The position numbers and the translations under genes are program-made. The notes beneath the pieces are model-generated. The model was not told the origin of the DNA. It was given only the letters and a program-made list of their open reading frames with translations, and did not search any database. A stretch of DNA of 64,000 nt. Source: Arenibacter certesii DSM 19833 (GTDB lineage: Bacteria > Bacteroidota > Bacteroidia > Flavobacteriales > Flavobacteriaceae). The stretch is taken from contig NZ_AUCB01000008.1 of assembly GCF_000429545.1 (NCBI RefSeq), forward strand, positions 62,001 through 126,000, in the 5' to 3' direction. Each line of letters opens with the position of its first letter. The stretch's first letter is position 1. Below, in pieces: positions 26,759-32,733 of the stretch.

Positions 26759-27284
26759 AGTTATTTATCCCATCTATATTCTATGCTAATTCTGGCTAAC
26801 AGTAAAGATGTACAAATTAAGTTTATAATCCAACGTAAAATAACCTGTATTGTTGCCACAATTAAATCAAAAAATGGGAAGGTTAATTTTAAGTATTTCA
26901 ACACTATAGCATGTTTTTTTTTTGCAATTAAATAGTATGGTGCACACTATTCGCTTTACTATCTATTTATATAGGTGCGAACAACTTCGTCATACCATTT
27001 AAATAATTGGCAATTTAGATTATCGCATTACTCCATATAGTATTGATCTTTCTATACTAGAACAATCAATAAAAAAGGCAATACAAATAAATTGCAGTGC
27101 CTTTAAATATATGTGAAATGATAAGATTTGGGATCTTTAATCGGGATTAAAAATAAGTTCTAGTTGGTTATAAAGCTACAATATTGTTGTGTAACCATCC
27201 AGTTTTGTGGTGAACTTTAGTGTTTACCACAAAATTACAATCTTGGTTTTCTAAAAATTTTAACAATACCTACACCATTAATTG
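26759..27284. other. AT-rich non-coding gap with inverted repeats
   Basis: 525 nt between the kinase start and the repressor gene end. Two hairpins stand out. AAAGGCA (27074-27080) / TGCCTTT (27098-27104) has an A-run that reads as a T-run on the minus strand. TTTTGTGGT (27203-27211) / ACCACAAAA (27226-27234) is a perfect 9-bp stem 51 nt after the repressor stop. Either could terminate the repressor transcript. No gene seen. Confidence 0.5.
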
Positions 27285-28052
27285 CTAATTATTCACCCTT
27301 CTAATCTGGCTTTTTAACTCCTCCATGGATTCCTGCAATTGCCTCAACAGTCCACTTTCTGAAGTAGCATCTACGCCAAAGGTTATTTTACTTCCCACTT
27401 GCCACAGTTCTTGCAACTCATTAGTCTTAACTCGATAGGGTGGATAATTCTCATTAATGGAGATTAGGTAGATTTCAGTAGGATCCGGGGATTTCTCCAA
27501 TTTCTTTACTAAGACGGCATCTTGCAGAACCACTACGTAGATTTTATTTGGGCTAATGTCCTGTAACCCTTCCACTGCTTTAGCCAACACCCATTCCCCA
27601 GGGCGTAAATTTGGCAACATACTGTCCCCCTCTACTTGGAAGCCCCGATAGGTAGCATTTCTAAATTCCGGAAGCGGTATATCGAATGCGGGAAGCTGCC
27701 TATACCAACTTGTGTCTTGAATATTTTGAGGATATCCCGCAGCAGCTTTTGCATTTACCAATACCATATTCTCATTGTCCGATGAATCTACGGTTACTAC
27801 TTTTGGCATAACACTACTGTTTGAAGTAGATAAGTGTCTTTGAATACTATCTCCATACAACCAAAGCGGATTTACATTAAATTGCTTAAGCAACTGGGCA
27901 ACTACAGTTCCTGATAATTTAGTTCTACCTCGCTCTATATCAGCGGTGGTATTGGAAACCCCTAATAGCTTAGCGAATTCTGCTTGTGTAAATCCAAGTT
28001 CCCTACGTACTTCTGTAAAACGTTTGACTGCAATCTCTAAGTTATCGTTCAT
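27285..28052 (-). CDS. LexA/cI-like self-cleaving repressor (XRE HTH + S24 peptidase)
   Basis: The 255-residue protein joins an XRE/cI-type helix-turn-helix (residues ~5-66, GFTQAEFAKLLGVSNTTADIE) to a LexA-like S24 protease domain. Visible are a cleavage-type Ala105-Gly106 (AKAAAGYP), nucleophile Ser144 (VEGDSMLP) and general-base Lys183 (VLVKKLEK). The Ser-Lys spacing (39) is close to that of LexA (37). This predicts RecA-stimulated or damage-linked autocleavage and derepression. Divergent from a small-ORF/DUF4130 operon and separated from it by an array of GGA-N5-TCC operator-like palindromes that overlap its own promoter, implying autorepression. It could instead be a domesticated phage repressor; no other phage gene is near. 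Confidence 0.88.
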   Translation of the reverse strand: MNDNLEIAVKRFTEVRRELGFTQAEFAKLLGVSNTTADIERGRTKLSGTVVAQLLKQFNVNPLWLYGDSIQRHLSTSNSSVMPKVVTVDSSDNENMVLVNAKAAAGYPQNIQDTSWYRQLPAFDIPLPEFRNATYRGFQVEGDSMLPNLRPGEWVLAKAVEGLQDISPNKIYVVVLQDAVLVKKLEKSPDPTEIYLISINENYPPYRVKTNELQELWQVGSKITFGVDATSESGLLRQLQESMEELKSQIRRVNN

Positions 28053-28122
28053 ATTCCAAAGTTTAAATTACAATGCCAAATAATATCCCAAGCGCTAAAT
28101 TGGAATAATCAATTGACAGATT

Positions 28123-28151
28123 CAAATATACGTGTTTTGGAGTATATCCAA
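28123..28151 (-). promoter_or_regulatory. Promoter of the LexA-like gene
   Basis: On the minus strand TTG (28151-28149), an 18-nt spacer and TATATTTG (28130-28123) fit the Bacteroidota consensus. The perfect palindrome at 28135-28153 covers the -33 box and most of the spacer, the right place for autorepression. Confidence 0.6.
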
Positions 28152-28209
28152 AAATTATATTGGATTATTTCCATAATTAGGAAATATTCCATATATTTGG
28201 ATTAATTAC
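28135..28209. promoter_or_regulatory. Array of GGA-N5-TCC operator-like palindromes
   Basis: Three palindromes and a half-site lie in the divergent gap: TTTTGGA-gtata-TCCAAAA (28135-28153, perfect 7-bp arms), TGGA-ttatt-TCCA (28161-28173), GGA-aatat-TCC (28180-28190, also read GGAA-ata-TTCC), and a half-site TTTGGA (28196-28201) fused to the -7 box of the right-hand promoter. Centres are 18-23 bp apart, about two helical turns. Further half-sites (TTGGA at 28100-28104, TTCCAAA near 28054) flank the repressor start. They are the likely binding sites of the adjacent repressor. Confidence 0.65.
28192..28199 (+). promoter_or_regulatory. -7 element TATATTTG of the damage-type operon
   Basis: TATATTTG matches TAnnTTTG and lies 15 nt before the first ATG (28215) of the small ORF. 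Its last bases form the operator half-site TTTGGA, and a GGA-N5-TCC palindrome sits directly upstream, so repressor binding would block it. No -33 TTG is present. Confidence 0.55.
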
Positions 28210-28214
28210 AAATC

Positions 28215-28400
28215 ATGTTAATTATGACTATTGATGAGCTACACCTAAAATTAAGCCAATTAGCGTTTTCTGCAATTGGAGATGAACCCTTTGCCCTACA
28301 TAAGCCGCGTAATGGAGAATCTATAGTAAAAAGACGTAGAACATCCAAACCTAAAAAGGCAGAAATTAAAACCTATATACAAATTAGTTTATTCGATTAA
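28215..28400 (+). CDS. Small basic protein ending in a beta-clamp-binding-like motif
   Basis: This 61-residue ORF (58 if the second ATG at 28224 is used) has an amphipathic N-terminus (MTIDELHLKLSQLAF). A central basic stretch follows (KRRRTSKPKK, residues 39-48), and the C-terminus is TYIQISLFD. QISLF (56-60) fits the bacterial sliding-clamp-binding consensus QL(S/D)LF, and C-terminal position is typical for clamp-binding peptides. No family was recognised. It lies directly downstream of the operator array and only 2 nt upstream of the DUF4130/TIGR03915 gene, so the two are cotranscribed and probably damage-inducible. It could also be a remnant of a larger repair protein with a clamp-binding tail; clamp binding is inference. 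Confidence 0.6.
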   Translation: MLIMTIDELHLKLSQLAFSAIGDEPFALHKPRNGESIVKRRRTSKPKKAEIKTYIQISLFD

Positions 28401-28402
28401 AT

Positions 28403-29116
28403 ATGGAAAATGTAAAAATTTTACGATATGATGGAAGTTTAAATGGATTCTTATGTGCGGTATACCGGGCCTTCGAATCGAAATTAAGAGTAATAGATAT
28501 TCAGAAAATCGAAAAGTCTCAAAAAGGCCTCTTTACAGAAGTAGAGACAGTTTTTACGGATATAAATAAGGCCAGACGTGTATGGACCGGGATACAGAAA
28601 AAAAATAATGTTGCGGTCAAAACAATCTATTTTTCTTTTTTGAGCGAAACCAAGGGTATTGAAATACAGCTATATAAATACATCTGTTCCCTTTACATTA
28701 CTTCCTCTGAAGACGAATCGGAAGAATTGCATGCCATTAGAATAAAACTGTACCAGTATGCAGGCATGGTATCTAGGGAGAAACTCCGAATAGAGTCAAT
28801 CGCGAAATTCAGAGTTTCCCAAGATGATATTTATTTTTCTGCTGTCTCTCCTCATTACGATGTATTACCATTGATATCCAAATACTACCGATCAAAATTT
28901 CCGCATAAGGAGTTTGTGATCTACGATCTTAAAAGACGCTATGCCATTTATTATGACCTAGAAACAACACAGATCATTAAGTTAGATCTTTCCCACATCC
29001 ATACTTCTGGGCCACTATCCAACACAACTATACAACCCTTGATCACCACCGAGCTAATTGCTCACCACATTACTTCCCACGCAGCTCACTTTTACAGTCA
29101 AAAAACTGCCGTCTAA
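28403..29116 (+). CDS. TIGR03915/DUF4130-type DNA metabolism protein
   Basis: The 237-residue protein begins MENVKILRYDGSLNGFLCAVY. It shows the family pattern: KARRVWTGIQKKNNV (about 55-69), LYKYICSLY (about 92-100), VSREKLRIESIAKFRVSQDDIYFS (mid-protein, part only) and FVIYDLKRRYAIYYDLE (about 173-189). I recognise this as the TIGR03915/SAM_7 DUF4130 family, a putative DNA repair or modification protein that normally accompanies a radical-SAM enzyme (TIGR03916). No radical-SAM gene is adjacent or elsewhere in the window. It is second in the operator-controlled operon after a 61-residue clamp-motif protein, 2 nt apart. Biochemical activity is unknown. Confidence 0.82.
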   Translation: MENVKILRYDGSLNGFLCAVYRAFESKLRVIDIQKIEKSQKGLFTEVETVFTDINKARRVWTGIQKKNNVAVKTIYFSFLSETKGIEIQLYKYICSLYITSSEDESEELHAIRIKLYQYAGMVSREKLRIESIAKFRVSQDDIYFSAVSPHYDVLPLISKYYRSKFPHKEFVIYDLKRRYAIYYDLETTQIIKLDLSHIHTSGPLSNTTIQPLITTELIAHHITSHAAHFYSQKTAV

Positions 29117-29249
29117 AAAATGTAAGACATTGGTCTAAGTTATAGCCTAAATTTCACCAAAAGACGATTGGCAACTTTTACCAAACAGCGTAAAATTATA
29201 ATTTAAGCGACTATATAGACACTAGGTTTCAGGATATTTTTTGATGGAT

Positions 29250-29777
29250 CTATTTACTTTTCTCTCCTACAAAATTATCGCTTTGATTCTTAAACAAGAC
29301 ATTAAAAGTAGTTAAGCTACCATAAATACGGGTAATGTATTGTTGCAAATCAATTTTTTCTTGATCGTCCAAATTAGAACTACTATTAATTTTCTGCTCC
29401 ATCACCCTTATACGATCTCGTACCATAACAATTTTATGAAAAAAAGTATCAATTGGAATTTTCTTTTCCGACAAATTGGCTTCCCCAGGCATTAACACTA
29501 AAGACCCACCCTTCCATTTATCTGCTATGGGTGTTACCGAACTGGCATCGCTCCATCTTCTAAGTATCCCTATTAAAGATTGTTCAACTTCAGAAAAACT
29601 TATAGAATCTACCTCACTTTCCAAGGCTTCAATAACTTCAAAATCTGAATCAATATCAATTGTTTCAAGTCCACTATCCATAAATGTAATCCAATAATGT
29701 TTGGAGGTTACATTGGTGACTACCCCTTTGCCTAATTCCTTATGAAGGATTCGTGATCCTATTCCTAAAAGCTGCAT
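29250..29777 (-). CDS. Unknown protein with UvrD-C-terminus-like (Tudor/CarD-like) N-terminal domain
   Basis: The 175-residue protein has an N-terminal module GSRILHKELGKGVVTNV, then WITFMDSGLETIDIDSDFEVIE (part; residues ~6-50). Its pattern of H, G-G-V, I-F and hydrophobic end resembles the last 50 residues of the UvrD in this window (VNHTRFGRGQVIKIEG, then IKFDKGDVKKLLLRFAKLEVL). The rest (55-175) is acidic-helical with no motif recognised (SLIGILRRWSDAS, then FFHKIVMVRDRIRVMEQ). It is divergent from uvrA (110 nt) and convergent with the DUF4130 gene. A repair or RNA-polymerase link is inferred from context and the shared module only. Start ATG at 29777. Confidence 0.7.
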   Translation of the reverse strand: MQLLGIGSRILHKELGKGVVTNVTSKHYWITFMDSGLETIDIDSDFEVIEALESEVDSISFSEVEQSLIGILRRWSDASSVTPIADKWKGGSLVLMPGEANLSEKKIPIDTFFHKIVMVRDRIRVMEQKINSSSNLDDQEKIDLQQYITRIYGSLTTFNVLFKNQSDNFVGEKSK

Positions 29778-29889
29778 ATAATATTATTTTAAATTAATCT
29801 CGCTAATTTATAGCTAAGCCATTAAATAACAAAAAACTAAATTCTGCCGTCTTCATTTTTAAAGGTCAATATCGTAACTTCGCGCATTG

Positions 29890-32733
29890 ATGACAAAAAT
29901 GATGGCATACGAAGAAAATATTGAGGTTCAGGGAGCCCGGGTACATAACCTAAAAAATATAGATGTTACTATCCCTAGGGAAAAACTAGTTGTAATTACC
30001 GGTCTTTCCGGCAGTGGCAAATCCTCCTTGGCCTTCGACACCATTTATGCAGAAGGGCAACGAAGATATATTGAAACCTTTTCGGCTTATGCAAGACAAT
30101 TTTTAGGAGGATTGGAACGTCCCGACGTCGATAAAATAGACGGACTTTCTCCTGTAATCGCTATTGAGCAGAAAACTACTTCTAAATCCCCACGATCTAC
30201 AGTAGGCACCATCACAGAAATATATGACTTTCTTAGATTGTTGTTCGCTAGAGCCAGCGACGCCTACAGTTTCAATACTGGGGAGAAAATGGTAAGTTAC
30301 GATGATGAGCAGATAAAGGACCTCATTATAACAACTTACGAAGACAAAAGGATTAATATTCTAGCGCCCGTAATTAGGTCCAGAAAAGGACACTATAGGG
30401 AACTCTTTGAACAAATTGCCAAACAAGGGTTTGTTAAAGTAAGAATAGACGGCGAAATAAAGGATATTGTAAAGGGCATGAAAGTGGATCGTTACAAAAC
30501 CCATGACATTGAAATTGTCATAGACCGACTTAAAATTACACCCAGTCCTGAATTGGACAAGCGTATTTCCGAGAGTATCAATACCGCTATGTACAGTGGA
30601 GACAATATATTAATGATTTTAGAGGAAGGCACTGAAGAGCCCCGCTATTTCAGCAGGGATTTAATGTGCCCCACAACAGGTATTTCCTATCCCTCCCCAG
30701 AACCAAATACCTTTTCATTTAATTCTCCCAAAGGAATGTGCCCCGATTGCAATGGCTTGGGACATGTTTATGAGGTGAACGAAAACAAAATATTCCCCAA
30801 TAGAAAATTATCGATTACTGCTGGGGGCATCGCTCCATTAGGACCTTATAAAAAGTCTTGGGCCTTTAAACAAATAGAGATCATTGCCCAACGCTATAAT
30901 TTTAAACTAGACGACCCCATTTCTGAGATTTCTGAGGAAGCCATTAAAATATTGTTATATGGTGGCAAGGAGAGCTTTGAAGTTGACTCAAAGGCACTAG
31001 GTGTAAAAAGACAGTATAAAATTGATTATGAAGGCATATCACATTTTATAAAAAGTCAGTTCCACGAAGCTAATACCACTTCTATCAAAAGATGGGCTAA
31101 AGAGTATATGGACAAAATTAAATGTCCAACCTGCGAGGGCACTCGTTTAAAACAAGCATCTTTAAATTTTAAGATAGATGACAGAAACATTGCCCAATTA
31201 TCCAATTTAGATATTTCCGAACTAGCGAAATTTTTCAAGGATTTAGAAACTAAACTATCGGGAAATCAATTAAAGATTGCTGAAGAGATAATTAAAGAAA
31301 TTAGGAGCAGAATCCAATTTTTATTGGATGTAGGATTAAATTACCTCTCTTTAAACCGTAGCAGCAAGTCCTTATCTGGTGGGGAGGCCCAACGAATTAG
31401 ATTAGCTACCCAAATAGGTTCGCAATTAGTGGGGGTGCTTTATATTTTAGACGAACCCAGCATTGGATTGCATCAAAGGGACAACGAACGGTTAATAACA
31501 TCCTTAGAATCACTTAGGGATATAGGAAATTCCGTGATTGTAGTAGAACATGACCGGGATATGATAGAGCGTGCAGACCATGTTATAGATATTGGTCCAA
31601 AGGCTGGGAAACACGGTGGGGAAATAATTTCACAAGGAAGTCCGGCTGAGCTTAAAAACCAACATACCCTTACCGCAGCATATATAAACGGGGACCTGAA
31701 AATTGAGGTTCCCAAATCTAGAAGGCCAGGCAATGGTAAATCTATAAAACTAACCGGTTGTACCGGCAATAACCTTAAGAATATCTCAGTTGAATTCCCT
31801 TTAGGAAAAATGATAGGGGTAACTGGGGTTTCGGGAAGCGGAAAATCTACCTTGATAAGTGAAACATTATATCCTATTTTGAACGCTCATTATTTTAATG
31901 GGGTAAAAGAACCAATGCCCTTTAAAAAAATAAGTGGCCTAGAGCATATAGATAAGGTTATAGATATTAATCAATCTCCTATTGGTAGGACCCCAAGATC
32001 CAATCCTGCCACCTATACCGGAGTATTTAGCGAAATTAGGGCTTTGTTTGCTAAGACCCAAGAAGCCGCAATTAGGGGCTACAAGCCTGGGCGATTTAGT
32101 TTTAATGTTACAGGCGGACGTTGTGAAACCTGTAAAGGCGGAGGTTTACGGGTTATAGAAATGAATTTTCTGCCAGATGTGTATGTTGATTGCGAAACAT
32201 GTAACGGAAAACGATTCAATCGTGAAACCCTAGAAATTAGATATAAAGGGAAGTCTATTGCAGATGTCTTGGAAATGACCATTAATGAATCGGTAGGATT
32301 TTTTGAAAACATCCCTAAAATCCATAGAAAACTTAAAACAATACAAGATGTGGGATTAGGTTATATCTCACTAGGACAGCAATCTACCACCCTATCTGGA
32401 GGAGAGGCACAACGTATTAAACTGGCCACTGAATTATCGAAAAAAGATACTGGAAATACATTCTATATCTTAGACGAACCCACAACTGGGCTGCATTTTG
32501 AAGATATTAGAGTGCTCATGAATGTCTTAAACAAGCTTGTAGACCAAGGTAATACTGTTTTAGTAATAGAACACAATATGGATGTTATCAAAATGATGGA
32601 CCATATTTTGGATATTGGCTATGAAGGTGGCAGAAGTGGTGGAATGGTCGTTGCAAAAGGTACTCCTGAGGAGGTTGCAAAGGATAAAAAAAGTCATACT
32701 TCCAAGTATCTGAGAAAAGAATTAGGTTTGTAA
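29890..32733 (+). CDS. uvrA: Excinuclease ABC subunit A
   Basis: From the ATG at 29890 the protein is 947 residues, normal for UvrA. It is the damage-recognition ATPase of nucleotide excision repair, acting as a dimer with UvrB. Two ABC modules are seen: Walker [10 protein letters not shown] near 38 and GVSGSGKST near 650, and signatures [15 protein letters not shown] and [15 protein letters not shown]. Zinc-binding pairs are [18 protein letters not shown], and CETCKGGG with [12 protein letters not shown] three bases upstream and ATGs 9-12 bases downstream are also possible starts. A one-mismatch -7 box TAACTTCG lies about 10 nt upstream. No GGA-N5-TCC operator was found at this promoter. Divergent neighbour: the Tudor/CarD-like protein. 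Confidence 0.97.

Follow-up and report, generated by a model that had tools for sequence, protein, structure and literature searches.

Non-canonical LexA proteins have been described in the Flavobacteriaceae, and GGA-N5-TCC was reported as their operator in 2021 (PMC8565304). The main sections of that paper describe EMSA with mutated sites, which showed GGA-N5-TCC binding by the homologue of S. agarivorans DSM 23515, together with mitomycin C induction for this homologue and no apparent induction of recA in S. agarivorans; they place the GGA-N5-TCC group primarily in Flavobacteriaceae and give DinB, DnaE, SplB, COG1573-COG4277, SRAP and GIY-YIG genes as the regulon. We read the COG4277-COG1573 operon of that account as the pair of a radical-SAM enzyme (TIGR03916) and a DUF4130 protein (TIGR03915), the latter of which a figure legend in PMC3765255 calls a 'predicted mutagenesis-related enzyme'. 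A further point of comparison is the bacterial clamp-binding consensus QxxLF, given in PMC12309361 with B. subtilis PolC (QLSLF) and DnaE (QMGLF) as examples. Beyond PMC8565304, the only later paper found in the open-licence literature was a review of the resistance genes that plastic waste carries, and no paper on an Arenibacter LexA was found there.

The window analysed here is a stretch of 64,000 nucleotides from Arenibacter certesii DSM 19833. Its intergenic region 28053-28214, flanked by a minus-strand repressor gene on one side and two plus-strand genes on the other (Table 1), is, we are confident, an operator and divergent promoter region that a non-canonical LexA shares with a small SOS operon. 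Set against the main sections of PMC8565304, nothing essential differs in the repressor, which probably belongs to the GGA-N5-TCC group: the two have in common HTH_3 and S24 domains (here PF01381 at 38.3 bits and PF00717 at 50.2 bits, both above cut-off), an Ala-Gly pair with a Ser-Lys dyad (here Ala105-Gly106, Ser144 and Lys183), GGA-N5-TCC in the repressor's own promoter, and the motif at SOS genes, namely those for a Y-family polymerase, DnaE, SRAP, a GIY-YIG nuclease and an SplB-type radical-SAM protein. The XRE-type HTH and the complete S24 residues had been recognised in the initial annotation and were borne out here; the LexA-type wHTH PF01726 is absent from the repressor's listed domain matches. 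As the repressor is the single S24 family match in the whole genome, no UmuD was found there. The self-regulated SOS-like circuit proposed earlier is supported both by the sites shared with repair genes in this genome and by the published binding and induction of the homologue (PMC8565304). The circuit is real but, as that binding and induction had been reported before, already known, and the operator observation is mostly explained. The operator does differ from the LexA boxes of E. coli and Bacillus, but its description as 'Bacteroidota-specific' was too wide for a group reported primarily from Flavobacteriaceae (PMC8565304). Neither the small gene nor the fixed triple array that precedes it, with its pair of -7 boxes, appears in the main sections of that paper, and the small protein beside the known circuit appears to be a new part.

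Table 1. Features of the LexA locus (positions in the window) and paired operator sites elsewhere in the genome
Feature	Position	Strand	Detail
Non-canonical LexA, 255 aa	27285..28052	minus	XRE-type HTH and S24 autoprotease domain
Repressor promoter -7 box (TAnnTTTG)	28123..28130	minus	TATATTTG
Operator site 1	28135..28153		core GGA-N5-TCC 28139-28149, perfect 7-bp arms
Operator site 2	28160..28174		core GGA-N5-TCC 28162-28172
Operator site 3	28178..28192		core GGA-N5-TCC 28180-28190; abuts right-hand -7 box
Divergent-operon -7 box (TAnnTTTG)	28192..28199	plus	TATATTTG; continues into TTGGA
Degenerate fourth site, GGA-N5-TAC	28197..28211		TTGGATTAATTACAA; fused to right-hand -7 box
Small protein, 58 aa	28224..28400	plus	short conserved segment at the N-terminus, variable basic linker, clamp-type tail QISLFD at the C-terminus
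DUF4130/TIGR03915 putative DNA repair protein, 237 aa	28403..29116	plus	
Paired site	C1		precedes Y-family polymerase gene
Paired site	C13		precedes Y-family polymerase-DnaE operon
Paired site	C1		precedes SRAP gene
Paired site	C21		precedes GIY-YIG nuclease gene

The three GGA-N5-TCC palindromes that had been read from this region are all present, the perfect 7-bp arms of one of them were correctly described, and their starts lie 23 and then 18 bp apart, in agreement with the spacing of 18-23 bp given before. The GGA of a degenerate fourth site, at 28199, lies 19 bp beyond the start of site 3, and TTTGGAtTaatTAC of this site is prominent in the consensus of 79 loci. The additional half-sites mentioned in the initial annotation could be located as TTGGA/TCCAA at 28055, 28100, 28137, 28147, 28160 and 28197. 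The array lies at both divergent promoters, as claimed, the palindromes and the degenerate fourth site being placed between or over the two -7 boxes: to judge from the spacing, site 1 probably lies partly over the -33 expected for the repressor promoter, and at the right-hand promoter a half-site is fused with the -7 box. Rfam gave no match within 27000-30000, and matches in sigma-70 and terminator scans were not above chance. Single GGA-N5-TCC sites carry little meaning, because the window holds 23 of them against 12.85 expected, a mild enrichment; TTGGA-N5-TCCAA with up to two mismatches was observed 59 times against 44.5 expected. The three-site cluster is not chance. The window has one such cluster within 55 bp, whereas 300 windows simulated with a first-order Markov model had none, and among 20,000 simulated 162-mers with the spacer's own dinucleotide make-up none reached three sites.

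Conservation of the array was followed at the loci of the best 80 of 486 repressor relatives, which come from many genera of Flavobacteriaceae and among which the closest relative is that of Arenibacter amylolyticus (91% identity). At 79 of these 80 loci the triple recurs, its second start 22-23 bp after the first (23 bp in 55, 22 bp in 24) and its third 18 bp further on; the sole exception, L094, has two sites. Its position relative to the promoters is equally fixed, the offset of the lexA -7 box from site 1 (16) being constant in 77 of the 79 triple loci and that of the right-hand -7 box from site 3 (12) in all 79. All 18 Arenibacter genomes, the window's own included, carry the 23/18 triple, as does L023. 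Two sites each were found at L024 (64% identity) and L025 (42%), and none in the 400 bases scanned at the nine loci L026-L034, where identity is 31% or less and the repressor match often starts inside the protein.

The initial annotation had suggested a genome scan for TTGGA-N5-TCCAA near TAnnTTTG promoters, to see whether repair genes share the operator; repair genes do share it, in the form of paired GGA-N5-TCC sites, but the strict palindrome discriminates poorly. When the whole genome was searched for TGGA-N5-TCC-N2..30-GGA-N5-TCC, with the reversed pattern as control, 10 forward and 13 reverse matches were obtained against 3 and 1, at 16 distinct places. Seven of the 13 places examined lie inside open frames of at least 150 aa and six outside; the window accounts for two of these six, and the remaining four are upstream of repair genes (Table 1), each pair having starts 19 bp apart and ending 13-72 bp ahead of the first ATG. 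A fifth pair with the 19-bp spacing is within a gene on C8, and a single strict palindrome adjoins a PA0069-type radical-SAM gene (C14), just upstream. The regulon is partial, since no GGA-N5-TCC was found just upstream of recA (L165), of a third Y-family gene (L164) or of a second radical-SAM/DUF4130 pair (L116, C12). The strict TTGGA-N5-TCCAA occurs at 23 places genome-wide against 11 for its reversed control and was rejected as a test of the regulon, since 20 of its 22 sites outside the window fall within open frames of 120 aa or more; the remaining two lie ahead of the PA0069-type gene and of a SusC/RagA-type gene. The site ahead of the SusC/RagA-type receptor ORF (C5, L003:1501-1515) is 66 bp before it, with a second GGA-N5-TCC 84 bp on, and is probably due to chance. 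A combination of TTGGA-N5-TCC with TAnnTTTG within the next 40 bases (5 forward and 2 reverse matches against 1 and 0) was also set aside; its seven rows include two from the window, one from the C13 polymerase operon and, on C18, one in an open frame. Paired sites do better than the strict palindrome.

It is very improbable that the repressor is instead a CI-type protein of a prophage or mobile element that controls its own locus only, with the array as a phage-type operator: it matches phage repressor families in PHROGs (phrog_4, 93 bits) with a CI-like HTH, and three operators at a divergent promoter resemble lambda OR, but place, geometry and neighbour family are constant in 79 of 80 loci from many Flavobacteriaceae genera, the repressor is the sole S24 protein found, and its sites stand at repair genes elsewhere in the genome. 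The published homologues, moreover, control SOS genes (PMC8565304). For the SOS circuit of this organism, we infer binding, cooperativity, cleavage and induction as follows. Repressor dimers would occupy the three palindromes, probably side by side, and keep both promoters shut, with site 1 covering the lexA -33 and site 3 and the degenerate fourth site lying at the right-hand -7 box. Once DNA is damaged, RecA filaments would trigger self-cleavage of the repressor between Ala105 and Gly106 by the Ser144/Lys183 dyad, and the regulon would be switched on: lexA, the 58-aa protein together with DUF4130, both Y-family polymerases (one accompanied by DnaE), SRAP, the GIY-YIG nuclease and the PA0069-type radical-SAM protein.

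What had been called a divergent repair operon was found to contain two genes, that of the 58-aa small protein, which comes first, and that of the DUF4130/TIGR03915 putative repair protein. An alternative in-frame ATG lies at 28215, and relatives favour 28224 as the start; across 44 loci, among which some genomes are represented twice, the small-gene start codon follows the -7 box by 18-27 nt. No Pfam, NCBIfam or PHROGs family matches the protein, which contains neither a cysteine nor a radical-SAM core and is not a member of TIGR03916. Aligned small proteins have a start of the form xxIxxKLxxxAxxGxxD, followed by a basic variable linker, and end in QxxLF, whose Q, L and F do not vary across the 26 rows of the alignment; the tail is assumed to be free. 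The protein thus looks built to bind the sliding clamp by this tail. A C-terminal QxxLF is common to the small proteins and the radical-SAM enzymes; unlike the known QxxLF clamp binders described in PMC12309361, the putative binder here has no recognised domain. Judged by title or abstract, no paper found in the open-licence literature on DUF4130, TIGR03915 or TIGR03916, or on small SOS clamp-binding proteins, deals with this protein.

Opposite lexA, a full radical-SAM gene is present at 32 of the 80 loci, the small ORF with DUF4130 at 27, DUF4130 alone at 20 and neither at one; L077 and L083, counted among the 32, have the small ORF too. Loci were sorted by the tail pattern, which odd tails can escape; outside these 80 it passed over L008 (tail QPSLF), which was restored by hand. 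The small ORF is found in 17 of 18 Arenibacter genomes; A. amylolyticus (L007/L035) has no open frame for it and has kept the array and DUF4130. A profile search of 249 genomes of the family found the small protein in 13, with one match each, in every case beside a lexA relative and in 12 with the full triple array; the next gene is that of DUF4130 or, in L178, a radical-SAM/DUF4130 pair. Among 296 genomes of the order there were four matches, all within Flavobacteriaceae, three of them shared with the family search and the fourth at the same lexA-array place. Missed small proteins are likely, because the search profile is short. Members of this unannotated family include the window's protein and those of L168-L180 and L188, and a LexA array is adjacent in every match examined. 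The ends of the small protein look selected: as uncorrected proportions with high pS, pN/pS over 136 pairs of 17 Arenibacter sequences is 0.27 for the ends, 0.82 for the linker and 0.57 overall, and over the 31 closer pairs 0.18, 0.42 and 0.33.

The locus shares its DUF4130 partner with the TIGR03916 operon, the enzyme of which stands beside lexA in 32 of the 80 loci, but the window has a 58-aa protein without a radical-SAM core in the enzyme's place. A profile of 38 small-protein starts was scored against 700 ORFs from the 80 loci, each at whichever ATG scored best, and 28 of the 29 flagged radical-SAM ORFs scored above all 671 other ORFs, the one remaining flagged ORF scoring low. The C-terminal clamp-type motif is likewise present in 28 of the 29 radical-SAM ORFs and in 4 of the 671 others, and at least two of these four are radical-SAM ORFs read from another start. 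Both ends of the small protein thus match the enzyme, which suggests that the small gene may be what remained of a radical-SAM gene, perhaps a duplicate, after an internal deletion. Our confidence in this origin is moderate, because the shared start covers about 19 residues. Deletion of the radical-SAM gene in place as the sole origin is weakened by L077, L083, L178 and L188, which carry both genes. On the DUF4130 tree, eight changes of the small-gene label are needed, with starred branches forcing at least two of them, and the small gene may have arisen once or several times. The full enzyme (TIGR03916) is found in 3 of the 18 Arenibacter genomes, including the window's own, which holds a complete radical-SAM/DUF4130 pair elsewhere (L116:7521-9565, on C12); the structure model of the radical-SAM protein was poor (pLDDT 46.5) and was left out. 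Of 13 gaps examined between a radical-SAM gene and the DUF4130 gene, 9 hold a second small ORF of about 50-76 aa (L057, L064, L066, L076, L081, L093, L097, L104 and L113); these ORFs look alike and have a core like RxAILxLGYxFIxFKS.

The DUF4130 protein itself scores 130.8 bits with TIGR03915, above the cut-off of 112.25, and 59.2 bits with PF13566, and its structure model reached a pLDDT of 84. Among solved structures the model is best matched by a PAP phosphatase and then by pyrophosphatases and RecJ-type proteins, which we take to be of the DHH family. With TM-scores of at most 0.43 and no histidine invariant in the DUF4130 alignment, we assign no function to DUF4130. Solved structures searched by profile yielded no match below E 0.7. 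Residues 40-44 read QxxLF and lie in a loop of the model; Q40 and L43 are nearly invariant and F44 is invariant in 41 rows. It is possible that this loop is an internal clamp motif.

With less weight than we give to the circuit, we infer that the 58-aa protein would be a clamp-binding adaptor or competitor made during the SOS response. For the Flavobacteriaceae at large, we put forward tentatively, as somewhat short of probable, that an SOS-induced clamp-binding protein of about 60 residues, consisting of hardly more than the two ends of a radical-SAM DNA-repair enzyme, may tether DUF4130, or a change of polymerase, to the replication clamp. The likeliest use of the protein, though one that we can only call possible, would be as an adaptor that tethers DUF4130 to the clamp and stands in for the lost radical-SAM enzyme, with the N-terminal segment common to the radical-SAM partner binding DUF4130 or another partner and the tail binding the clamp. 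The resemblance of its start to that of the radical-SAM ORFs and the QxxLF ending of both are consistent with this, as is the position of the gene, which in all 13 family genomes with a match lies between the array and DUF4130 or the radical-SAM/DUF4130 pair; furthermore, of the 15 Arenibacter genomes without a TIGR03916 match, 14 keep the small protein. On the other hand, DUF4130 occurs with neither partner at 20 of the 80 loci, A. amylolyticus among them, and DUF4130 may have a QxxLF loop of its own. The small protein is not simply a stand-in, since it coexists with the radical-SAM gene in the four loci that hold both. The tail test adds no support, because none of 94 DUF4130 proteins has a clamp tail in its last 15 residues, and no DUF4130 of the loci without the small protein has gained one.

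The main rival to the adaptor is a clamp competitor, which during the SOS response would slow the replicative polymerase or pass the clamp to Y-family polymerases independently of DUF4130. We consider this rather unlikely: a short protein, basic in its linker and ending in a clamp motif, encoded by the first gene after an SOS promoter, is what such a competitor might look like, but all 13 matches examined are beside DUF4130, and the N-terminal segment, which a bare competitor would not need, is also conserved. Another possibility is that the small ORF is a decaying, functionless remnant of a radical-SAM gene, as the likeness of its ends to those of the enzyme, its loss in A. amylolyticus and its absence beside DUF4130 at 20 of the 80 loci could indicate; this is improbable, as the frame is open in 17 of 18 Arenibacter genomes, the other two frames have 2-9 stops each, and pN/pS, uncorrected and with high pS, is low at the ends and higher in the linker among all pairs and close pairs alike.

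The array brings a compact SOS regulon to a genus that is not named in the main text of PMC8565304. As a rigid operator-promoter block, in which about 90 bp hold both -7 boxes and three or four sites, it would be well suited to the study of how a non-canonical LexA represses cooperatively. The main interest of the locus, however, is the neighbour that the initial annotation had passed over. A conserved, unannotated clamp-tail protein, apparently under SOS control, may provide a handle on DUF4130, a repair family without known activity, and on access to the clamp after damage in bacteria in which, as here, no UmuD is found.
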